Below are positions 34,028-42,845 of a stretch of DNA of 44,086 nucleotides, in pieces. Position 1 is the first letter of the stretch, and each line of letters opens with the position of its first letter. Source of the DNA: an uncultured Verrucomicrobia subdivision 3 bacterium (GTDB taxonomy: Bacteria > Verrucomicrobiota > Verrucomicrobiia > Limisphaerales > UBA11358); contig CAJAQO010000017.1 of the NCBI GenBank assembly GCA_903944085.1, positions 1 through 44,086 of the forward strand, read 5' to 3'. Under the pieces are notes generated by a model. That model was given only the letters and a program-made list of their open reading frames with translations. It did not search any database and was not told where the DNA came from. The position numbers were made by a program, and so were the translations under genes.

Positions 34028-34041
34028 TTGACCTGAGTCAA
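34028..34041 (+). promoter_or_regulatory. DNR/FNR-type box 1 (TTGACCTGAGTCAA)
   Basis: It lies upstream of the cupin operon. The box centre is 41.5 bp from the A of the cupin ATG (34076). A -10-like hexamer GATAGT lies at 34064-34069, which is -12 to -7 if transcription starts on the ATG itself. This fits a class II activated, leaderless promoter. Confidence 0.8.
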
Positions 34042-34075
34042 TTTTTACGGACGAGGTTCATGCGATAGTCTTTGC

Positions 34076-34435
34076 ATGAGCGAAAAACCTTTGATTGATG
34101 TGGCGCAGGAAAAAATCCTGTCGCTGGCCGAGGAAACCAAGTTTGCCGCTAACGGCATTGTGAGCCGGACCTTGTTGCGCACGGCGACTTCGCGAATTGT
34201 GCTGTTTGGTTTTGCCGAAGGCCAGGAACTCACCGAACACACGTCCACCCAATCGGCGGTCGTCCAGATTTTGTCCGGTGAATGTGAATTTTCCCTAGGT
34301 GGCAAACCTCACGCTGCCAAGGCTGGCGACCTGATTTATATGCCGCCCAATCTGGCGCACGCCGTGACTGCGACGAAGCAATTCTCCATGTTGCTGACGC
34401 TTTCAAAAACTGAACCAGTTTCTGTCAAATCGTGA
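34076..34435 (+). CDS. Small cupin-domain protein
   Basis: This 119-aa single cupin barrel has the two motif regions ELTEHTSTQSAVVQILSGEC and GDLIYMPPNLAHAV, with His residues placed for a metal site. Its position behind a DNR-type box and in front of two DUF2249 genes ties it to nitric-oxide or low-oxygen physiology. Its activity is unknown. The GTG of the next gene overlaps its stop codon (GTGA). Confidence 0.85.
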   Translation: MSEKPLIDVAQEKILSLAEETKFAANGIVSRTLLRTATSRIVLFGFAEGQELTEHTSTQSAVVQILSGECEFSLGGKPHAAKAGDLIYMPPNLAHAVTATKQFSMLLTLSKTEPVSVKS

Positions 34436-34602
34436 GCAAAAAGATTGTCGCATTGGATGTCCGGGAAGACCTGCGCAACGGGCACGAGCCGTTTTCCAAA
34501 GTGATAGGTGCCGTCGCTCAGATGCAACCGGATGAAAAACGGCTGCTGATTGCTCCATTTAAACCGACGCCGCTTATTTCCGTTCTGGGCAATGATGAGT
34601 GA
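34432..34602 (+). CDS. Truncated DUF2249 protein (56 aa)
   Basis: A GTG start overlaps the cupin stop (GTGA). The product reads KKIVALDVREDLRNGHEPFS, then VIGAVAQMQPDEKRLLIAPF and KPTPLISVLGNDE. The DVR motif, the helix and the LLIAPF.P.PL strand match DUF2249, but the protein stops where the family normally continues with a GF...W strand pair. It is probably a frameshifted or trimmed copy; the intact 82-aa homologue is encoded at 36051-36299. Confidence 0.65.
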   Translation: MSKKIVALDVREDLRNGHEPFSKVIGAVAQMQPDEKRLLIAPFKPTPLISVLGNDE

Positions 34603-34659
34603 AACCGCCCGGCAGATGGCGGGCATCCGCAATTTTTAACCAACCAACAAAACATAATT

Positions 34660-34965
34660 ATGAATACATCAACTGAAAACCTCATCGGTGCGGACAAAGT
34701 CATGGACGTTCGTTCCATCCCTTGCTCCGTGAAACATGGCCTCATTGTTCAGACCTTTCTCCAACTCGCCGTTGGCGACCACTTCATTCTGTTCAACGAC
34801 CACGATCCCGTCCCGCTTCGCTACCAGTTTGCCGCGCAATGGCCGGACACTTTCACCTGGGAGCATCTCGTCAACATTCCCGGCGAAGCCCGCGTGAAGA
34901 TCACGAAATTGAAAGTGCTAGGCAGCCCGGTCGAGCCGGTTGCGACCGCCTGCGGCGGCCATTGA
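34660..34965 (+). CDS. DUF2249 domain protein
   Basis: The protein is 101 aa. It has VMDVRSIPCSVKHGLIVQTF and LAVGDHFILFNDHDPVPLRY followed by QFAAQWPDTFTWEH, the classical DUF2249 pattern with the NDHDP.PLRYQ signature. The family is often found beside hemerythrins and denitrification genes and resembles TusA-like small folds; its biochemical role is not established. It is third in the cupin operon and is followed by a rho-independent terminator. Confidence 0.88.
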   Translation: MNTSTENLIGADKVMDVRSIPCSVKHGLIVQTFLQLAVGDHFILFNDHDPVPLRYQFAAQWPDTFTWEHLVNIPGEARVKITKLKVLGSPVEPVATACGGH

Positions 34966-34984
34966 AATTCTTAATCACAAAACA

Positions 34985-35016
34985 ACCGGCCTTGAGAAAT
35001 GACGGCTGGTTTTATT
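34985..35016 (+). terminator. Rho-independent terminator after the cupin/DUF2249 operon
   Basis: ACCGGCC (34985-34991) pairs with GGCTGGT (35004-35010), with one G-U pair, and is followed by TTTATTT. It lies between the converging DUF2249 and YgbA-type genes. Confidence 0.7.
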
Positions 35017-35035
35017 TCTAAAAGCAAGCAGCCGA

Positions 35036-35431
35036 TCAAATTTCCGGAGCCTTGCGAAATCCATCAAGCCAGTGGCGCAGGCTCAAGATCGGATGTTCCC
35101 ACAACATGCGTGGCCCGGCGTAACGCATCATGACACGGATTTGTTCGCGCCGGGTCTTTTGATAACAATGGACGGGACACTTCGCGCACGTGGGTTTGTC
35201 TTCGCCAAACCGGCAGCGATCCAGGCGCACATTGGCATAATTTAAAAGCCCCTGGCACTCTGCGCAAAGTGACATGGTAGTGTTGTGGTGATCGCGACAA
35301 TGTATTTTCATCATCGCCTCCATCGTTTTCCATTCGCGGTTAAGCCGTTTGCTGGAGAACGCGACAAGGCTGGTTCCATTCGTCGCCATGGGAATGGTTT
35401 GCGTCAGAACTGAATTGGCAGTCGTATTCAT
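35036..35431 (-). CDS. YgbA-type nitrous-oxide-stimulated promoter family protein
   Basis: The start is set at the ATG at 35431 (MNTTANSVLTQ), 131 aa, because the DNR-type box then falls at the canonical distance. The motif series is MMKIHCRDHHNTTMSLCAEC, LLNYANVRLDRCRFGEDKPT and CAKCPVHCYQKTRREQIRVM, then RYAGPRMLWEHP. This is the signature of the YgbA_NO family, with several conserved Cys and His likely to bind metal. Enterobacterial ygbA is controlled by the NO-responsive repressor NsrR; here the promoter has a DNR-type box instead. Confidence 0.9.
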   Translation of the reverse strand: MNTTANSVLTQTIPMATNGTSLVAFSSKRLNREWKTMEAMMKIHCRDHHNTTMSLCAECQGLLNYANVRLDRCRFGEDKPTCAKCPVHCYQKTRREQIRVMMRYAGPRMLWEHPILSLRHWLDGFRKAPEI

Positions 35432-35465
35432 GTGATGATTCTTGCACGAGAGCGAGTGAATATTT

Positions 35466-35479
35466 TTGATGCAAGTCAA
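35466..35479 (-). promoter_or_regulatory. DNR/FNR-type box 2 (TTGATGCAAGTCAA)
   Basis: It lies upstream of the YgbA-type gene. The box centre is exactly 41.5 bp from the A of the ATG at 35431. The hexamer at -12 to -7 is AAGAAT on the minus strand. The layout is the same as at the cupin and NO reductase genes. Confidence 0.8.
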
Positions 35480-35521
35480 AGATTCGACTGGTTTTCACCA
35501 AACGATAAAACATCGGGTTCC

Positions 35522-35535
35522 TTGACTTGAATCAA
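35522..35535 (+). promoter_or_regulatory. DNR/FNR-type box 3 (TTGACTTGAATCAA)
   Basis: It lies 81 bp upstream of the GTG of the DGC-domain gene. A class II promoter here would start near 35570 and give a leader of ~47 nt. Boxes 2 and 3 are 56 bp apart and serve divergent genes. Confidence 0.75.
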
Positions 35536-35616
35536 ATAAATACATGCTGAGTTCGCCGAAGATGGTTCTGTAAGAAACGATAAAAGCTTATGAAAAACGA
35601 CAATTAAAATCCGACC

Positions 35617-36054
35617 GTGCCAACCAAACCAACCACCGTGGTCTACGCCTGCTCCGGTTGCTCGGACGCCGGCGAAATTGCCGACCGCGTGGCCCGCCAA
35701 CTCACCCGCGATGGCGCAGCGAAGATGTCCTGCCTCGCTGGGATTGGCGGCCGGGTCAAAAGTTTGGTAGCGACGGCGGAACGAGCCGAGCGGATTTTGG
35801 TCGTGGATGGCTGCCCGTTGAATTGTGCCCGGCACACCCTTGAACTGGCCGGCTTCCATAAATTTGACCATCTTGAATTACACAAACTCGGTATCCGCAA
35901 AGGATCCACACCGGTGACGAATGAGATCATTTCGGATGGTGTGACGGCAGCCAAGAAAATGCTCTCGGCGACCGACGCGGAGTCGGCCTGCAACGAATGC
36001 CTCACACCACTGTTGCCGCCAGTCCTTGAATTATCCACCATCACCAAACCATGA
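35617..36054 (+). CDS. DGC-domain putative zinc-binding protein
   Basis: This 145-aa protein starts at GTG. It shows YACSGCSDAGEIADRVARQL, KMSCLAGIGG and the name-giving LVVDGCPLNCARHTLELAGF. The conserved cysteines C12, C15, C39, C66 and C70 are those proposed to bind metal in the DGC family. It sits between a DNR-type box and the DNR-type regulator gene, and its stop overlaps the next ATG (ATGA). Its function is unknown; the placement indicates a role in NO or N-oxide metabolism. Confidence 0.88.
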   Translation: MPTKPTTVVYACSGCSDAGEIADRVARQLTRDGAAKMSCLAGIGGRVKSLVATAERAERILVVDGCPLNCARHTLELAGFHKFDHLELHKLGIRKGSTPVTNEIISDGVTAAKKMLSATDAESACNECLTPLLPPVLELSTITKP

Positions 36055-36299
36055 ACATGCCACCGTTGGACAAATTTAAACGTTTTGATGTGCGCGCCCT
36101 GATCCAGCTCGGCGTCGAGCCCTTCCCGGAAATTCACAAACGCGTTAATGCGCTCCATTCGGAGGAAGGCTTAATTGTCGTCGCGCCATTTCTGCCGTCG
36201 CCCCTGGTCGAAAAACTGGCCGGTGACGGCTTCGCCAGTAAGGTGGAGCGCGGCACGGGCAGCGACTGGCTGGTTTACTTTTGGCGGAAGACGGATTAA
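36051..36299 (+). CDS. DUF2249 domain protein (82 aa)
   Basis: The protein shows FKRFDVRALIQLGVEPFPEI, GLIVVAPFLPSPLVEKLAGD and SDWLVYFWRK, a complete compact DUF2249 domain including the final aromatic strand. Its ATG overlaps the DGC-gene stop (ATGA), so the two are translationally coupled. It ends 8 bp before the regulator ATG. Confidence 0.88.
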   Translation: MNMPPLDKFKRFDVRALIQLGVEPFPEIHKRVNALHSEEGLIVVAPFLPSPLVEKLAGDGFASKVERGTGSDWLVYFWRKTD

Positions 36300-36307
36300 A
36301 TAGAGCC

Positions 36308-37024
36308 ATGTCAACCTTGGGCGACCTCAAAACCTTTGCGATCACCAATACGCTTCGCAGCTGTAAGCTTTTCACCGGCCTGCCACAAACGGATCTCGCG
36401 AACATCGCCGCCGTCACCGTGGTAAAATCTTTGGAAAAAGGAGACTATCTTTTTCATGAGGGCGACGCGGCAAGCGGATTTTACGTCATTCAACGCGGGG
36501 CGGTGAACATTCATCGGGTGACCGCCACCGGCAAGGAACAGGTTATCCACGTCTTCCGCACGGGCGACTCCTTTGCGGAGGTTGCCTTGGCGGCACCGAC
36601 GGGCTATCCCGCCGATGCCCGCGCATTGGAAAACAGCCAAGTTTTATTGGTGCAAAAGGATGGCATTCTCGCCTTGCTCAAACGCCAGCCGGAACTTGCG
36701 CTGCGAATGTTGGGTTCAATGAGCAGCCACCTGCGCGTGCTCGTCGGTCAAATTGAAGACCTCACCGTGAAGGATGTGGAGACGCGCCTGGCCAACTGGC
36801 TGGTGAAACGCTGCCCAAATCCGCAAAGCGACGCACCGGTGAAAATCGAGCTGACGACAAACAAGCGTGTGCTGGCGGCGGAGCTCGGCACGGTCAGCGA
36901 AACATTTTCCCGAACGCTGGCAAAATTTCGTGGACTGAAACTCATCGCTGTGAAAGGCAAAACTCTCACCGTGTTATCGCCTGCGAAGCTGCGCGCTTTG
37001 CTCAAACGCAACTTGGGAGAATAA
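36308..37024 (+). CDS. CRP/FNR-family regulator, DNR/NnrR-like
   Basis: The ATG at 36308 (MSTLGDLKTF) gives 238 aa; a TTG 27 bp upstream would lie inside the DUF2249 gene. The cyclic-nucleotide-binding-like fold spans ~20-140 (LEKGDYLFHEGDAASGFYVI), then a long dimer helix and a winged HTH. The recognition helix reads SETFSRTL, the E-x-x-S-R pattern (E198, S201, R202) that reads TTGAT-N4-ATCAA. The N-terminus has a single Cys and no FNR [4Fe-4S] cysteine cluster, so a DNR/NNR-type NO sensor is more likely than an oxygen-sensing FNR. It is the obvious candidate to bind the six boxes in this region. It ends the DGC - DUF2249 - regulator operon. Confidence 0.9.
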   Translation: MSTLGDLKTFAITNTLRSCKLFTGLPQTDLANIAAVTVVKSLEKGDYLFHEGDAASGFYVIQRGAVNIHRVTATGKEQVIHVFRTGDSFAEVALAAPTGYPADARALENSQVLLVQKDGILALLKRQPELALRMLGSMSSHLRVLVGQIEDLTVKDVETRLANWLVKRCPNPQSDAPVKIELTTNKRVLAAELGTVSETFSRTLAKFRGLKLIAVKGKTLTVLSPAKLRALLKRNLGE

Positions 37025-37050
37025 TTCAACGGCACGAACCCGGACACTCT

Positions 37051-38064
37051 TCAAGGCTGGCGCTGGGCTGCTTGCAGCTCTTGAATTTGTTGAGCCATTT
37101 CTTGAGGCGTGGCCGAGGATATCCAGTGGCCGGAAACTTTTCCGTAAACCAGTGTGATGAGAAAAATTCCGAGAATGCCCCACGCCACCAGCGCTGGCCT
37201 CACTCGACGCTTAGTAAATGCCACACTGACTCCAAGAGTGTTTGAAACCGGGCACGATTCCACGCATTCCAAACATAGCGAACATTCGTCCGAACGAACT
37301 GTAAGCAGCTGGTTTACCGGCAGTGAAGCCGGGCACGCTTTGGCGCATTTGCCACAATCAATACAGGAAGGAATGTCACGTTTTATACGGGTCGGGCTCA
37401 GTAGGCCTGCCAGGGCGGTCAGGGCACCATAAGGGCAAAGATAACGGCACCAGAAATGCCGGACCAAAACGGACAGCGCCACCAAGATCGCCAGGACAGC
37501 AACCGTAGTCGAACTGGGATGCAGGAAGAACTGCAGCAGGCGGACGTCCGCCAACTGATTAAAAGGACTATCCAAAAATGCCTGCAAATCGCCGAGATTC
37601 ATGCGGAAGCAGATCACGAAGGCGAAAAATCCCAGCAGCAGATATTTAATGGAGCGTAAAAATCTGTCCGGCCATTTGGGCAGGCTGAAGTTTTTTCTAA
37701 AAATCGCCCGACCCGCATCCGCCAATTTTTCCGAAAATAATCCGAACGGACAAACCCAACTGCAGAACGATTTTTTGAATAGAAATGAAATTGCCAGAAT
37801 TGCCGCGAAAATCAGCAACCCCGCCGGATGCACGTTTTGAATGATGCCGGTTTGCAGCCAATAGCGGGCGCTCATGAGCGCGCTGATGGGGAGAAAAGCC
37901 TCAACGCCCGGTGGCCGCGCAGCCGTCGGCAGAGCATTGCCAAGGCATGAATGATAAAACTCGATGAACCGCCAGCCAATCAACAGACAAACACCCAAGA
38001 AGATGAACTGCACCGTGCGGCGCAGACGATGTGGTTTCGCCTCATTTTTAACAAATGTTTTCAT
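37051..38064 (-). CDS. NapH/NosR-like membrane ferredoxin
   Basis: The start is set at the ATG at 38064 (MKTFVKNEAKP), 337 aa; the frame continues upstream through the DNR-type box, so the longer version is unlikely. Several membrane spans surround two CxxxCP motifs (CSWVCPFG and CRYLCPYG). Two [4Fe-4S] motifs follow (CIDCGKCAKACP, CSLCLECVESCP), with a final span near the C-terminus. This is the electron-transfer half of NosR/NapH/CcoG-type proteins without the periplasmic FMN domain. It may pass quinol electrons to a periplasmic N-oxide reductase such as the cytochrome encoded downstream (inference). Confidence 0.85.
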   Translation of the reverse strand: MKTFVKNEAKPHRLRRTVQFIFLGVCLLIGWRFIEFYHSCLGNALPTAARPPGVEAFLPISALMSARYWLQTGIIQNVHPAGLLIFAAILAISFLFKKSFCSWVCPFGLFSEKLADAGRAIFRKNFSLPKWPDRFLRSIKYLLLGFFAFVICFRMNLGDLQAFLDSPFNQLADVRLLQFFLHPSSTTVAVLAILVALSVLVRHFWCRYLCPYGALTALAGLLSPTRIKRDIPSCIDCGKCAKACPASLPVNQLLTVRSDECSLCLECVESCPVSNTLGVSVAFTKRRVRPALVAWGILGIFLITLVYGKVSGHWISSATPQEMAQQIQELQAAQRQP

Positions 38065-38112
38065 AAACAGGATTCCGTTGAATAAATATCGGTGGTTTTT
38101 TGCAAAACGTCT

Positions 38113-38126
38113 TTGACGCAAATCAA
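38113..38126 (-). promoter_or_regulatory. DNR/FNR-type box 4 (TTGACGCAAATCAA)
   Basis: It is centred 55.5 bp upstream of the NapH-like ATG. A class II start would fall 14 nt before the ATG, with GATATT as the -10-like hexamer on the minus strand. Confidence 0.78.
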
Positions 38127-38159
38127 ACAATTTAGTGAACGGTGCTTGTGACCACTACG

Positions 38160-38193
38160 AAAAATCCCGCCCGCGTTTGCACACGGACGGGAT
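38160..38193 (-). terminator. Rho-independent terminator after the NO reductase gene
   Basis: On the minus strand ATCCCGTCC pairs with GGGCGGGAT, with one G-U pair, around a 12-nt loop and is followed by TTTT. It begins 22 bp after the reductase stop and insulates the NapH-like gene, which has its own promoter. Confidence 0.75.
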
Positions 38194-38215
38194 CCAACAA
38201 ACGTGCACTAAAACT

Positions 38216-40549
38216 TCAACCGACTACGACGGGTTCCGGTATTTCCACATCCAGAACTTCAATCTGTTTGCCTTCGAGCGACCAGCCGGTTTTCAGACCG
38301 AGGATAAACCAGCAGATGCCAAAAATGCCGAAGGTGAACACCGTGTCACCAATGACGCGCAACCAGCGCAGCTTGGTCATCAGTGGCGATTGCATGAAAT
38401 CCGCCGAGCGGGCATACCACATGCCGTGTTCCACGCTCGCCCAGGTTTGCATCAAGCCGACCGGCAACAGACTCAGCACAATCATCAATACAAGGCCGAT
38501 GTTCAGCGACCAGAAGCTGAAACTCAGCACGCCGGATTTCCAGGCCGATTGCCGGGTCATGCTGCGCAGGCAAAACAACATGAGCGCAATGCCGAGCATG
38601 CCGTAGACACCAAAGAGGGCGGCGTGGGCATGCACCGCCGTCGTGTTCAAGCCCTGCATATAGTAGAGCGCGATGGGCGGATTGATCAGGAATCCGAACA
38701 GTCCGGCACCCACGAGATTCCAGAACGCGACGGCCACGAAGAAGTAGATCGGCCATTTGTAGGCAGACACCCAGGAGCGGGCTTTACCGTGTTGCAAGTT
38801 TTCAAAGCCCTCGGCACCGACGAGCACCAGCGGCACAATTTCCAGGGCACTGAAAATGGAACCGACAGCCAGAACGCCGGTCGGCGTGCCGCTGAAATAC
38901 AAGTGATGCATCGTTCCAAGAATGCCGCCGCCAAGATAAATTGCGGTCGAAAAGATCACCGCCGTCGTGGCCGTGGCCAGCCGCAACAATCCCATACGCG
39001 TAAACAGGAAGGCGATTACGACCGTGGCAAAAACTTCAAAGAAGCCTTCGACCCAAAGATGGATCACCCACCAGCGCCAATATTCAGCCATCGCCAGATG
39101 TGTCTGCCGTCCCCACATCAAACCGGCACCGTAAAACAACCCGATGGCCGCCGAGGCGAGCAAGAACAAACCAAGCAAGTGGCGATTCGGGCCAGGATTC
39201 TTGAATGCCGGCCAGAGCGCACGGCCCATGAGGAACAGCCACAAGAACAAGCCGATCAGTAAAAAGATTTGCCAGAACCGGCCAAGGTCAACGTATTCGT
39301 AGCCTTGATGGCCAAACCAGAAATTGGCGACGAAGCCGAGTTTTTGTTGCACACCAAGCCATTCACCAAACAACGAGCCAACGACGATGAGGAGCAGGCA
39401 AACGAATAAGAAATTAACGCCGAGACGCTGTCCGCGCGGTTCCCAACCCGAAACCGCAGGTGCAACATACAAGCCGGTGGCGAGCCAAGCGGTGGCGATC
39501 CAGAAGATACCAAGCTGCGTGTGCCAAGTGCGTGCGACAGCATACGGCAACCATTTCGCTAGCGGGATGCCGTAGAAACCATCGCCTTCCACCCCGTAAT
39601 GTGCCGTGACCGCGCCAAGTCCAACTTGCACGAGCATGAGCGCGGCGACGATCCAGAAATATTTCAAAACCGCCTGCATTGAAGGCGTCGTTTTGATGCC
39701 GAGCAACGGATCGGTTTTTGGAATCACGATGGCGTCCTCGCCTTCTTCTTCATGACGCTTCGCGGCCGTATACCAGACCATCGCGCCAATGCCGGCGAGC
39801 AGTGCGATGACGCTGACTACTGACCAGATCACAATCGAACTGGTGGGGTTATTACCGATGAGGTCTTCATGCGGCCAGTTTTGGGAATAGGTGACTTGGC
39901 TATTGGGTCGCTCCGTGCCGCAGGACCACGCGGCCCAAAAGAAAAAGGCGTTCATGAGGCGCTGACGTTCCGGCGTTTTAATTGTATTCGCGGGAATCGC
40001 ATAATTGTTACGGAGCGTTTTCAGTTCAGGATCATTTCCGAACAACGAGGCATAATGCGCGGCCACCGCTTGCATCGCCTCTGCACGCGTCGCGGAAACC
40101 GAGATGTTGCCGGTCTGCGCGTCGTAAGTGTTCGAGCGGATTTCTTTTTTCAGACGCTCGCGTAACGCTGCCTGGGTTTCCGCATCGAGCTGGGCGTAAG
40201 TTTTGCCGCCAGATTGCGCGGCCCAATGATCCAGCAACCAGGTCGCTTCACGGTGTAACCAGTCGGCTGACCAGTCCGGCGCGACATACGCGCCGTGACC
40301 CCAGATCGTGCCGACCTCCTGACCACCGATGGATTGCCAGACGTTCTGACCGTCTTTGATGTCCTGACCGGTGAACAGCACCGCGCCGTCAGTCGTGACG
40401 ACCTGATTGGGAATGGGCGGCGCGGCATAATAAATCTCCCGGCCATAATAACCCAGCAGCAGGAATGACAGTGTCATGGAGCCGATCAAGCCCAGCCAGA
40501 GGTTGCGGTAGGAGCGAGGTTTCTTTCTTGGTGATGATGTAATACTCAT
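38216..40549 (-). CDS. norZ: Quinol-dependent nitric oxide reductase (qNOR)
   Basis: It reduces 2 NO to N2O using quinol at the inner membrane. The ATG at 40549 gives 777 aa; the frame opens at a TTG at 40555. The N-terminal extension typical of single-subunit qNOR is present (GQDIKDGQNVWQSIGGQEVG, GHGAYVAPDWSADWLHRE, PNSQVTYSQNWPHE). The catalytic barrel holds the expected His ligands in TWHTQLGIFW (~345), WVIHLWVEGFFEVFA (~497, with the Glu near FeB), GTMHHLYFSG (~549) and AVHAHAALFGVYG (~642), within about 14 membrane spans. It is a single-gene unit with its own DNR-type box and terminator. With no nitrite or N2O reductase in view, NO detoxification is the likely role. Confidence 0.95.
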   Translation of the reverse strand: MSITSSPRKKPRSYRNLWLGLIGSMTLSFLLLGYYGREIYYAAPPIPNQVVTTDGAVLFTGQDIKDGQNVWQSIGGQEVGTIWGHGAYVAPDWSADWLHREATWLLDHWAAQSGGKTYAQLDAETQAALRERLKKEIRSNTYDAQTGNISVSATRAEAMQAVAAHYASLFGNDPELKTLRNNYAIPANTIKTPERQRLMNAFFFWAAWSCGTERPNSQVTYSQNWPHEDLIGNNPTSSIVIWSVVSVIALLAGIGAMVWYTAAKRHEEEGEDAIVIPKTDPLLGIKTTPSMQAVLKYFWIVAALMLVQVGLGAVTAHYGVEGDGFYGIPLAKWLPYAVARTWHTQLGIFWIATAWLATGLYVAPAVSGWEPRGQRLGVNFLFVCLLLIVVGSLFGEWLGVQQKLGFVANFWFGHQGYEYVDLGRFWQIFLLIGLFLWLFLMGRALWPAFKNPGPNRHLLGLFLLASAAIGLFYGAGLMWGRQTHLAMAEYWRWWVIHLWVEGFFEVFATVVIAFLFTRMGLLRLATATTAVIFSTAIYLGGGILGTMHHLYFSGTPTGVLAVGSIFSALEIVPLVLVGAEGFENLQHGKARSWVSAYKWPIYFFVAVAFWNLVGAGLFGFLINPPIALYYMQGLNTTAVHAHAALFGVYGMLGIALMLFCLRSMTRQSAWKSGVLSFSFWSLNIGLVLMIVLSLLPVGLMQTWASVEHGMWYARSADFMQSPLMTKLRWLRVIGDTVFTFGIFGICWFILGLKTGWSLEGKQIEVLDVEIPEPVVVG

Positions 40550-40583
40550 ACACAAAATCTAGCCGGTCCCGTGCAAAACAAGT

Positions 40584-40597
40584 TTGACCTGCGTCAA
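40584..40597 (-). promoter_or_regulatory. DNR/FNR-type box 5 (TTGACCTGCGTCAA)
   Basis: It is centred exactly 41.5 bp from the A of the NO reductase ATG (40549). The minus-strand hexamer at -12 to -7 is TAGATT. This is the third case of the leaderless class II layout. Confidence 0.82.
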
Positions 40598-40642
40598 CTT
40601 TTCGCGAATTTGTCGTGAATTACCGTATTCGCTATTCAGAAA

Positions 40643-40668
40643 TAAAAAAGCCCGGGGTGAGCCGGGGC
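40643..40668 (-). terminator. Rho-independent terminator after the membrane-protein gene
   Basis: On the minus strand GCCCCGG and CCGGGC form a G/C-rich stem with one bulged C, followed by TTTTTTATTT. It starts 16 bp after the stop of the membrane-protein gene and closes the octaheme cytochrome operon. Confidence 0.75.
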
Positions 40669-40684
40669 GGTGGAACAATATTGA

Positions 40685-41512
40685 TCAGTGACGACGGGAA
40701 TCCGTCTTTGCGTGATGCTTCCGGCCCAGCACCCACAGGCCGATGCCCGCCAATACCGCCAAATCGCAAAACAAGGTCGGCGCGAATATTGGAGCACCGT
40801 GAACGATGCGTAGAAAAATATTTTCACCATTGTTGTGCCAATCCGCCAGCGCATGGAAGCCAAAGCCCAACGCGCCCAACGCCGTCTGCGCCAGCATAAC
40901 CAGGCCGCACAATTTTAAAAATGTCCGGTCGGTTTTCATGACCAACGGCACGATCAAAAAGCCGACAGCCACTGCACTGCTGATGACCGGAATCCATTCG
41001 GTGCTGTGGAAGAATCCGTTTTGAGCGTGGTCGGTTAAACTAAAGATGAAATTACCCGCGAAGCCACCTAGCGCGAAGAAGATCACCCACTGCGCCCATT
41101 CGGTTTCTTTGTCGGCAACCATGCGGTTCATGATCAGTAGCGAGCCAAGGCCGGCGTAAGCAAGCGGTGCGGCAAAGGGCGCGGCATAAACCAGGCTGGC
41201 CAGAGTCCATTGCTGGAAAAACTGACTTTGCAGATGCAGCACCAAGCCGGTAATTCCGATGAGGACCGCTGTGCCGCCCACGACCAGGCCCAGCCAGCGC
41301 CAAAGCGACATTCGTCCAGTGGCCAAGGCCCACAGTGCGGGTAAAAGGAGCACCGGTGCCACCAGTGAAAAAATCAGCGGCGTGTATTCCGCCCGGGAAT
41401 GAAAGGCGTTGACGCTGTGCGCAAGAAAAATGTCGGGCGCGAGTCCGCCCAGATTGAGCAGCACAAACAGTTCAACCCAGGTGCGCGGCCGCCGGAGCCA
41501 GTTATTTTCCAT
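40685..41512 (-). CDS. Polytopic membrane protein paired with the octaheme cytochrome
   Basis: The ATG at 41512 (MENNWLRRPRTWVEL) gives 275 aa and overlaps the cytochrome gene end by 11 bp; a longer frame reaches 41551. There are about eight hydrophobic segments with interspersed His (FLAHSVNAFHSRAEY, SLTDHAQNGFFHSTEW, GFHALADWHNNGEN). The family is not recognised. The tight overlap with the cytochrome gene suggests a membrane partner, perhaps a quinol-linked heme or anchor subunit, but no heme-binding motif is provable from sequence. Confidence 0.7.
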   Translation of the reverse strand: MENNWLRRPRTWVELFVLLNLGGLAPDIFLAHSVNAFHSRAEYTPLIFSLVAPVLLLPALWALATGRMSLWRWLGLVVGGTAVLIGITGLVLHLQSQFFQQWTLASLVYAAPFAAPLAYAGLGSLLIMNRMVADKETEWAQWVIFFALGGFAGNFIFSLTDHAQNGFFHSTEWIPVISSAVAVGFLIVPLVMKTDRTFLKLCGLVMLAQTALGALGFGFHALADWHNNGENIFLRIVHGAPIFAPTLFCDLAVLAGIGLWVLGRKHHAKTDSRRH

Positions 41513-42734
41513 TGTCCTTGCGCAGTTGGGCGGCTTGTTCCTTAAGCTCAACCGTGTGTTGAAGAATCGGATAATTGCCGTGCCATTGCATATAATCGGC
41601 CCCGCCCATGAAGGCGGCGTGCTTCGCGGTGCGGCCGTAATAATGCCAGAGGTCGAAGTAGGTGAATTGAATCGTCTGGCTGAATGGATTGGTCGAGAGC
41701 AAGCCGTCCGCTTTCACTCCGTCCATGATGGCTCTCGCCGCGAGGACTTTTTCATTGGTGTCAGCCACCACCGCGGCCCCTTCCCGATATATGCGGTCGA
41801 CCAGCGGCGGTGTGTGGCACTGGAGACAGACAGACTTCATCTTGGCCTGCGCCCGCTCGAAATTGGGACGCGGCTGAGTGACTTCGGCGAACAAGTTATA
41901 CGAGAGCCTTTCCGACGGATCGTGCGTGACGCCGATGCCATTGAGCCCGCTCATATGGCAGGTTGCACACGTCGGGATAAACATATCCTTGGTCGTCAAA
42001 CTGTCCGACGGGGCCTTCAAATTTAACTGGTCCTTTTGCGCCTCGAACATGATGCCATGCTTGGATTGCGTGTAGATTTCAATTTGAGAATGATCTGGGC
42101 CGAGGTGGCATTGCCCGCAGGTGCTAGGCAATCGCGCGACTTCCACGGACGACGTGTGGCGGGTGTGGCAGAGCGTGCAATTACCGATGCTGCCGTCGGC
42201 GTTGGGTTTGCCAATAGCATGACAGGTGATGCAGCCGCTTTTCGTGGCGGATGTGCCTTCGAGCATCGTCAGCGGGTGCGGCGGCCGTTTCATGGAACCA
42301 GGATGCAGCTTCTCCATCTGCTCGATCATCTCCGGCGAAAAATCCTTGTTTCCCATGACCGCCACCCAGGACGGCGCGGCGTGGCGGCTGCGGGCAAACT
42401 GCTCATAAACCGCCAAATGACAGGCCCGGCAGTTGGCGGAGGTGATGCCATTGTTAATGACGAAACCGTTGTGGTTCGTGCCGGTCTGGCCGGCTAAAAC
42501 TTGATGACAATCGAGGCAGGTCACGCCTTTTTGCGCATGCTTGCTCATCTCGTATTCGTGGACGATGGAATACTGGTTGTTGCGATGGCACTCCGCGCAT
42601 TTTCCGCTCGCCCGGACAAAATCCGCTGTTGGTTGCTGAACTACGACGCTGGGCCGCTTTGAGTTGACCAGATACGCCGAGACAATCAAGCCCGTGGCGA
42701 TGATGATGGCAATGAAAACGGTGCGGAAGTTCAT
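41502..42734 (-). CDS. Octaheme c-type cytochrome, hydroxylamine oxidoreductase (HAO)-like
   Basis: The protein is 410 aa with an N-terminal membrane anchor or signal (TVFIAIIIATGLIVSAYLV). Eight CxxCH heme sites are at C46, C73, C102, C168, C186, C206, C256 and C303. The C-terminal half has DLWHYYGRTAKHAAFMGGAD followed by YMQWHGNYPIL, strongly reminiscent of HAO-family octaheme proteins. Family members oxidise hydroxylamine or hydrazine, or (as in epsilon-HAO) reduce nitrite or hydroxylamine. Whether the Tyr that crosslinks to the P460 heme is present cannot be decided by eye. It is periplasmic and membrane-tethered, co-expressed with the overlapping membrane protein and preceded by a DNR-type box. 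Confidence 0.88.
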   Translation of the reverse strand: MNFRTVFIAIIIATGLIVSAYLVNSKRPSVVVQQPTADFVRASGKCAECHRNNQYSIVHEYEMSKHAQKGVTCLDCHQVLAGQTGTNHNGFVINNGITSANCRACHLAVYEQFARSRHAAPSWVAVMGNKDFSPEMIEQMEKLHPGSMKRPPHPLTMLEGTSATKSGCITCHAIGKPNADGSIGNCTLCHTRHTSSVEVARLPSTCGQCHLGPDHSQIEIYTQSKHGIMFEAQKDQLNLKAPSDSLTTKDMFIPTCATCHMSGLNGIGVTHDPSERLSYNLFAEVTQPRPNFERAQAKMKSVCLQCHTPPLVDRIYREGAAVVADTNEKVLAARAIMDGVKADGLLSTNPFSQTIQFTYFDLWHYYGRTAKHAAFMGGADYMQWHGNYPILQHTVELKEQAAQLRKDNGK

Positions 42735-42831
42735 GAGATGAATTGAGTCTTTATATGATTGTTTTTGATGTCAATTAGAAGCGTGGTTTATTTCTGTAGT
42801 ATCAGAATACCCAAACACGCGGCGGTTATAT

Positions 42832-42845
42832 TTGACGTAGGTCAA
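42832..42845 (-). promoter_or_regulatory. DNR/FNR-type box 6 (TTGACGTAGGTCAA)
   Basis: It is centred 104.5 bp upstream of the octaheme cytochrome ATG. A class II start would give a ~62-nt leader, with TATTCT near the expected -10 position. On the plus strand only the conjugation relic follows. Confidence 0.7.

Follow-up and report, generated by a model that had tools for sequence, protein, structure and literature searches.

Genes, boxes and promoters of the cluster

The window analysed here is the whole stretch of 44,086 nucleotides from an uncultured Verrucomicrobia subdivision 3 bacterium, whose order comprises little-studied soil and water bacteria. It holds a gene cluster with six perfect FNR/DNR-type boxes, and not only the three noticed in a preliminary description. 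Those three, all exact matches to TTGAYNNNNRTCAA, belong to the promoters of a cupin gene, a ygbA-type gene and norB:

34028..34041, + strand: FNR/DNR-type box TTGACCTGAGTCAA for the cupin gene; centre 34034.5, at -41.5 from the ATG; kept in 22 orthologues
34064..34069, + strand: -10 hexamer GATAGT of the cupin promoter; TGC before it makes an extended -10; 6 nt to the ATG
34076..34435, + strand: cupin gene, 119 aa, predicted leaderless; Pfam Cupin_2 7.6e-11; orthologues conserved from M1
35036..35431, - strand: ygbA-type gene, predicted leaderless; Pfam YgbA_NO 2.2e-42
35438..35443, - strand: -10 hexamer AAGAAT of the ygbA promoter, preceded by TGC
35466..35479, - strand: box TTGACTTGCATCAA for ygbA; centre 35472.5, at -41.5 from the ATG
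38216..40549, - strand: norB, quinol-type NO reductase, 777 aa, predicted leaderless; Pfam NorB_cytochrome_c-like 2e-72, COX1 3.9e-60
40556..40561, - strand: -10 hexamer TAGATT of the norB promoter
40584..40597, - strand: box TTGACGCAGGTCAA for norB; centre 40590.5, at -41.5 from the ATG

The A of the ATG lies at 34076 (+) in the cupin gene, 35431 (-) in ygbA and 40549 (-) in norB, in each case 41.5 bp from the box centre. These coordinates, on both strands, bear out the earlier claim of three TTGAY-N4-RTCAA boxes at exactly this distance, and also that of hexamers of the form xAxAxT at -12 to -7; the looser pattern nAnnnT is likewise present in all three. Allowing one mismatch, the window contains 17 boxes as compared to 5.3 +/- 2.2 in shuffled sequences, and none of 100 shuffles reached 17.

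The remaining perfect boxes stand further from their genes:

35522..35535, + strand: box TTGACTTGAATCAA, serving the divergently oriented DGC gene; centre 61.5 bp from the ancestral start codon (ATG at 35590); implied +1 at 35570
35558-35563, + strand: -10 GAAGAT of the DGC promoter, weak
35590..36054, + strand: DGC-domain gene; Pfam DGC 1.6e-29; orthologues begin at the ATG matching 35590
37051..38064, - strand: NapH/NosR-like 4Fe-4S membrane protein, leadered; TIGR02163 2.4e-22, under its cut-off
38113..38126, - strand: box TTGATTTGCGTCAA for the NapH-like gene; 55.5 bp to the ATG; implied +1 at 38078; -10 GATATT at 38085-38090
41502..42734, - strand: multihaem cytochrome c gene, leadered; Pfam Multi-haem_cyto 4.8e-24
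42832..42845, - strand: box TTGACCTACGTCAA for the multihaem cytochrome c; 104.5 bp to the ATG; implied +1 at 42797; -10 TATTCT at 42804-42809

The implied leaders are 14 nt (NapH-like), 20 nt (DGC) and 63 nt (cytochrome c). Codon 6 of the DGC gene (35605-35607) is TAA in this genome and the open frame picks up at a GTG at 35617; a box-to-start distance of 88.5 bp is misleading for this gene and was set aside, because the orthologue start corresponds to the ATG at 35590 and the stop lies at codon 6. At the DGC genes of genomes G240 and G244, as at a small number of other genes, a GTG micro-ORF with an ATGA overlap was seen.

The centres of box and -10, with the box upstream, are about 32 bp apart, an offset at which GATAGT, AAGAAT, TAGATT, GATATT and TATTCT are all found, and at which GAAGAT is a weak match; relatives preserve it. 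Since three of the boxes imply leaders, the fixed element appears to be the box together with its -10, with the start codon on +1 in some genes only.

Conservation of the spacing in relatives

Among cupin orthologues (63-100% identity), the 41.5 bp spacing is found in 18 of 22 (one with a mismatch in the box), one has 42.5 and three have 40.5. In these last three cases the -10 has moved together with the ATG, so that the -10-to-ATG distance is still 6 nt. Within the genus, ygbA has an in-frame start, either ATG or GTG, at 41.5 in 16 of 17 cases, and the same spacing occurs in four other families. Unlike this constant box-to-start distance, the spacing to the neighbouring box at the ygbA loci varies (54, 55, 56 or 81). 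Close orthologues of norB show 41.5 in five of seven cases, with N-terminal lengths differing, and norB is leadered in two congeners as well as in other families; the box-to--10 offset is preserved in the leadered norB promoters. Besides 40.5 and 42.5, orthologues at 45.5 also exist. The precise NO-regulon architecture put forward in the preliminary description is therefore supported for the cupin gene, ygbA and norB, but not regulon-wide, as half of the six boxes imply leaders and norB is leadered in several relatives.

A logo of 43 promoters has A at -11 (98%), T at -7 (95%), G at -14 (88%), C at -1 (91%) and A or G at +1 (100%), so that the relatives' promoters carry a pyrimidine-purine initiator at -1/+1.

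A histogram of box-to-ATG distances had also been suggested. In this genome it is uninformative, because of the 46 perfect boxes found elsewhere than in the cluster nearly all are intragenic, and the spacing was therefore examined across the genus and the order, where a peak at the leaderless spacing did emerge. The 49 congeners gave 265 box/-10/RTG matches, of which 69 have the single leaderless spacing, while any other spacing accounts for about 6.5; the binomial probability is 1e-41, a figure that overstates the significance because genomes of one genus are not independent. Put differently, 69 of 184 box-N34-RTG sites of the genus carry A-11 and T-7, where about 5-6% would be expected. Across the order there are about 120 leaderless-gap matches in 79 of 320 genomes, compared to 24 genomes for a gap of 12 (a 6-nt leader) and one for the reversed pattern, and the leaderless-spacing pattern occurs in 42 of 118 genera. 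The gap-6 totals include coding repeats (e.g., LTIINRYEEYG, LMGVNGDITVEG) and GTGs of very short frames, which are not taken as genes. This peak and the orthologue conservation agree with the earlier judgement that identical spacing in three units is unlikely to be chance.

Shine-Dalgarno background

As had been noted from the sequence, the cupin gene, ygbA and norB have no Shine-Dalgarno-like tetramer in the 20 nt upstream of their ATGs. This had been counted as support for a leaderless reading, an argument that falls away because scarcity of Shine-Dalgarno sequences is a general property of this genome and hence not diagnostic for these genes. In the sampled genome there is little Shine-Dalgarno excess, a TAnnnT peak stands at -12, and leaderless signals are widespread. 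These genome-wide statistics come from samples of this genome (~0.79 Mb) and of genome G188 (0.4 Mb), analysed with a home-made gene caller whose start calls are rough, so that the leaderless fractions are probably underestimates.

Candidate regulator and targets

36308..37024, + strand: Crp/Fnr-family regulator, DNR-like, candidate activator of the boxes; Crp/Fnr domains

The protein aligns to DNR (3dkw, 1.3e-23), with other cyclic-nucleotide-binding-type homologues scoring slightly better, and its NCBIfam matches are all under cut-off. The regulator co-occurs with ygbA, being present in 16 of 17 genomes with ygbA versus 9 of 32 others. The translated regulator has only one Cys in its N-terminal region; an FNR-type cysteine cluster was not found there, and the FNR cluster ligands are thus missing. 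Nitrogen-oxide genes under the box are norB and ygbA here; in relatives the targets, named by eye, include a NosZ-like gene, DUF2249-like genes (the family that we take to be COG4309) and DGC genes. The regulator would sense NO, and the regulon would respond to it.

Proposed mechanism and alternative readings

Our analysis indicates, with a probability of roughly 0.86, that the cupin gene, ygbA and norB have class II Crp/Fnr-type promoters giving leaderless mRNA from the start codon. The mRNA would very probably lack a leader entirely and begin on the first codon, which stands at a set distance from the switch; this distance is preserved in related genomes. With the box standing in for a -35 element, a DNR-like regulator (most likely the product of 36308-37024) would bind there as a dimer; RNA polymerase would use the -10 at -12 to -7 (often TG-extended) and initiate at the first base of the start codon, A or G, giving an mRNA whose 5'-terminal AUG or GUG the ribosome could take directly. 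Such a scheme would work because the lineage uses little Shine-Dalgarno and has many leaderless genes. The conserved unit would be the box plus the -10, with the presence of a start codon on +1 differing by gene and lineage. While the architecture and its conservation are read directly from the genomes, the transcription start, activation, the regulator's identity and NO as the signal are deduced from them. The earlier proposal of class II promoters with +1 at the start codon thus gains support from the 41.5 spacing in orthologues, the constant 6 nt from -10 to ATG, the genus and order peak and the initiator. More speculatively, and rather improbably, the activator site would determine the point of translation regulon-wide in this Shine-Dalgarno-poor order: the main genes would begin on +1, while some leadered members could instead have the GTG of a leaderless micro-ORF there, its TGA overlapping the ATG of the gene (ATGA) and so relaying the ribosome to the real start.

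The constant 41.5 could simply be inherited background with few indels as yet, the position of the start relative to the box having no function. Many compared genomes are indeed from one genus and their upstream DNA is partly visibly related, but indels do change the box-to-box spacing at the same ygbA loci, the -10 shifted with the ATG in the three 40.5 cupin cases, unrelated genes have the spacing in common, and the pattern is found again in 42 of 118 genera; this reading is largely refuted and we consider it very improbable. The choice of +1 usually wobbles by 1-2 nt, and sequence cannot separate a leader of 1-5 nt from none. Transcription might then begin 1-5 nt to either side of the start codon, with 41.5 reflecting -10 placement only, as the orthologues at 40.5, 42.5 and 45.5 would allow. 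The peak at a single spacing and the C at -1 with A or G at +1, which put the initiator exactly at the start codon, make this unlikely.

Crp/Fnr proteins are able to repress, and the sign of regulation is not readable from sequence alone, so the box could be a repressor operator overlapping the promoter. This is very unlikely, given that the box stands where a -35 element would and that, whether or not a gene has a leader, it lies 32 bp from the -10, as expected of a class II activator site. A doubtful possibility, though one to be taken seriously, is that an oxygen sensor of the FNR type or a regulator resembling HcpR, and not an NO-sensing DNR, uses the box; the architecture would then be correct, but the genes would not form an NO regulon. 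FNR and DNR have a common TTGAT-N4-ATCAA-type box (PMC1274295), and the sub-threshold NCBIfam matches would fit such a reader; norB and YgbA here, DUF2249 and the NosZ-like gene in relatives, and an adjacent DNR-aligning regulator with its single N-terminal Cys argue against it.

Relation to known systems

The lambda PRM promoter (cI gene) has an activator near -42 and gives a leaderless mRNA, but this is one phage promoter whose activator is unrelated, and not a conserved bacterial regulon. At the class II FNR/CRP promoters of gonococcal and E. coli fnrS, TTGAT-N4-ATCAA lies at -41.5 from the transcription start, and the gonococcal transcript starts with an AUG that was tested and found untranslated (PMC3032703); the box position is the same here, whereas the predicted +1 falls in many genomes on the start codon of a conserved protein-coding gene. 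According to PMC1274295, DNR, NnrR and HcpR regulons, mainly in proteobacteria and some other groups, place an FNR-like box ahead of norB and further nitrogen-oxide genes, with COG4309 a recognised companion, and a term search there found no mention of leaderless mRNA. The FNR-like box at norB is shared, and the predicted leaderless architecture is the feature here. TA-led leaderless genes of bacteria carry TANNNT about 12 bp before the start codon and lack Shine-Dalgarno sequences (PMC3160421; Deinococcus-Thermus, PMC12340547). Verrucomicrobia are not among the groups given in PMC3160421, and these surveys treat the -10 alone, whereas here an activator box is also locked to the start codon. 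In Akkermansia muciniphila, of the same phylum but a different group, Cappable-seq found that about 10% of transcription starts coincide with start codons and show a YR initiator, and the passages of PMC4782308 consulted make no Crp/Fnr link; the starts reported here are predictions from sequence. Our literature searches, made largely in openly accessible journals, found no work combining leaderless mRNA with FNR, DNR, Crp or class II promoters.

Implications

If the proposed reading is true, the place of the activator site would reveal the start codon of a regulated gene, and starts and regulons of uncultured Verrucomicrobia could be annotated with precision in this way. The reading would also mean that an activator-controlled stress regulon has key members translated via the leaderless route in a phylum that uses little Shine-Dalgarno. 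It would then become testable whether NO stress selects for leaderless translation or whether the latter is simply what the lineage does by default. On this question norB, leaderless in one species group but with a leader in another although box and -10 are the same, would offer a natural experiment.

FNR/DNR-type boxes and the encoded regulator

The window, part of a 5.79 Mb draft genome in 335 contigs, contains six exact TTGAY-N4-RTCAA boxes, spanning 34028-42845 and lying upstream of the following genes (distances are from box centre to the first base of the start codon).

cupin gene, ATG A at 34076, + strand: box at 41.5 bp, hexamer GATAGT at -12 to -7
ygbA, ATG A at 35431, - strand: box at 41.5 bp, hexamer AAGAAT at -12 to -7
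norB, ATG A at 40549, - strand: box at 41.5 bp, hexamer TAGATT at -12 to -7
NapH-like 4Fe-4S gene: box at 55.5 bp, implied leader 14 nt
DGC-domain gene: box at 61.5 bp from the ancestral ATG, implied leader 20 nt
multihaem cytochrome c gene: box at 104.5 bp, implied leader 63 nt

The coordinates agree with the preliminary description, which had placed the cupin, ygbA and norB boxes at 41.5 bp with these hexamers. If every box marks a class II promoter (Crp/Fnr dimer at -41.5), the six leaders would be 0, 0, 0, 14, 20 and 63 nt. At the class II offset, two of the leadered promoters carry the -10 sequences GATATT and TATTCT, and the DGC gene has GAAGAT, which is weak. The ygbA and DGC genes are divergent, and the two boxes between them (35466-35535) are 56 bp apart, one for each gene. 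In the window genome the DGC-domain gene, whose ATG is at 35590, has a TAA at codon 6 (35605-35607); its orthologues share the ATG and read through. The explanation is either a genuine lesion of the N-terminus, with translation restarting at GTG 35617, or a fault in the assembly.

Also encoded in the cluster are DUF2249 proteins and a Crp/Fnr-family regulator (36308-37024, + strand), among whose best solved relatives is the DNR protein 3dkw (1.3e-23). With a single N-terminal Cys, the regulator lacks the usual iron-sulphur ligands of an FNR and is therefore not one of that type. In E. coli, YgbA is under NsrR control (PMC1274295), and its presence together with norB and DUF2249 makes a nitrogen-oxide role for the cluster likely. 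Of the named relatives of the window's norB, the closest come from metagenome-assembled Verrucomicrobia subdivision 3/Limisphaerales. A second, partial regulator homologue (83% identity over 84 aa) lies at about 5310-5561 of L042 (G000:C127:23309-23560), and the perfect box just past it is inside coding sequence and probably due to chance.

Conservation of the spacing

Among 22 close orthologues of the cupin gene in the genus, 18 have the start at 41.5, one at 42.5 (GTG) and three at 40.5; in these three the -10 has moved along with the ATG, and the distance between them stays 6 nt. The cupin start is confirmed by conservation of the protein from its first residue. For ygbA, an in-frame ATG or GTG lies at exactly 41.5 in 16 of 17 genomes, and in the 17th (G265) the ATG is present at 41.5 but out of frame with the remainder. 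The next upstream box at ygbA loci is 54, 55, 56 or 81 bp away, so indels do occur nearby. The norB spacing is 41.5 in five of seven close orthologues with upstream DNA, with N-termini that differ in length and sequence, and 72.5 and 73.5 in G256 and G274. Several congeners have a distant norB-type homologue (39-43% identity; L326-L334, L017, L018), mostly without an upstream box at class II distance. A further case at exactly 41.5 bp is a 679-aa gene of G244 (L307:711-2747), NosZ-like by eye only, whose box is accompanied by the -10 TAATGT.

Gene-independent counts bore out the expected enrichment of the 41.5-bp spacing, with a peak at the leaderless gap in both genus and order. In 49 genomes of the genus, the pattern box + N23 + A...T + 0-30 nt + RTG gave 265 matches, 69 of them at the single leaderless gap against about 6.5 at each other gap (binomial 1e-41, a significance overstated by the relatedness of the genomes). 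Of these 69, 60 sit in the 25 genomes having a close homologue of the window regulator; the architecture is conserved and co-occurs with the regulator. When the -10 was not required (box + N34 + RTG), 184 matches were obtained, and 37% had A-11 and T-7, as against about 5-6% expected. Order-wide, about 120 matches (79 of 320 genomes, 42 of 118 genera) fitted the leaderless pattern when the start codon was ATG, compared with 24 for a 6-nt leader, several of which come from those promoters by way of a second ATG, and one for the reversed pattern in the 320 genomes.

Outside the genus, ygbA has the 41.5 spacing in four further families, and 42.5, 45.5, 54.5 and more in others. The norB box lies 54.5 to 98.5 bp from the start codon in other families, and the -10s there (TATAGT, TAGGTT, TAAGGT, TATTGT, TAGACT) keep their offset from the box, so that box and -10 form the conserved module whether or not the start codon falls on +1.

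Predicted initiation site and leadered promoters

Alignment of 43 promoters on the start codon gave A-11 in 98%, A-9 in 79%, T-7 in 95%, G-14 (extended -10) in 88%, C-1 in 91% and A/G at +1 in 100%; C-1 occurs in 34% of other genes of the window genome. C-1 with a purine at +1 fits the usual YR initiator. Such an initiator is also described at mapped starts of Akkermansia (PMC4782308).

Several relatives have leadered promoters at which a micro-ORF begins with GTG on +1 and ends in a TGA that overlaps the ATG of the gene. In some leadered cases a short ORF of 7 to 35 codons has its RTG on +1, with the overlap reading ATGA (L300 (-), L303, L307, L308, L302, L314 (-) and L315 (-)); G188 has GCG where the GTG would be. 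Since most genes here read ATGA, we estimate that perhaps one such overlap in five would occur by chance, a high base rate. That the short ORFs serve as leaderless relay peptides is a tentative idea.

Proposed mechanism and leaderless genes in the lineage

According to the proposed mechanism, the box would be bound by a Crp/Fnr dimer that substitutes for the -35 contact, the polymerase would take the -10, and initiation would land on the start codon. We infer this transcription start, the activation, the DNR-like regulator as the activator and NO as the signal. Each component is already known singly: class II promoters, DNR regulons and leaderless genes. In the literature searched, we found no description of their combination, in which the activator box keeps a fixed position relative to the start codon across many genes and genera. 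Lambda PRM is one precedent.

The absence of Shine-Dalgarno sequences at the NO genes, pointed out in the preliminary description, is true but not distinctive: a tetramer at -20 to -5 precedes 8.7% of genes in about 0.79 Mb of the window genome, against 6.8% in a control window, and 10.2% against 6.1% in the relative G188 (sampled DNA pieces L280-L299 and L260-L279, also used for TAnnnT). TAnnnT peaks exactly at -12, in 18 of 485 genes of the window genome (3.7%, background 0.7%) and 27 of 313 in G188 (8.6%, background 0.8%), and 39-56% of TAnnnT genes have TTG at -35 spacing, compared with 12% of the remaining genes. Shine-Dalgarno-scarce organisms include some Verrucomicrobia (PMC10783764), and in Akkermansia about 10% of starts were measured as leaderless (PMC4782308); Verrucomicrobia are absent from the groups with leaderless genes in PMC3160421. 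The scarcity of Shine-Dalgarno sequences and the sharp TAnnnT peak at -12, with its -35-like TTG, indicate, at the level of sequence, that the lineage uses leaderless genes in general and that they are common in the genus.
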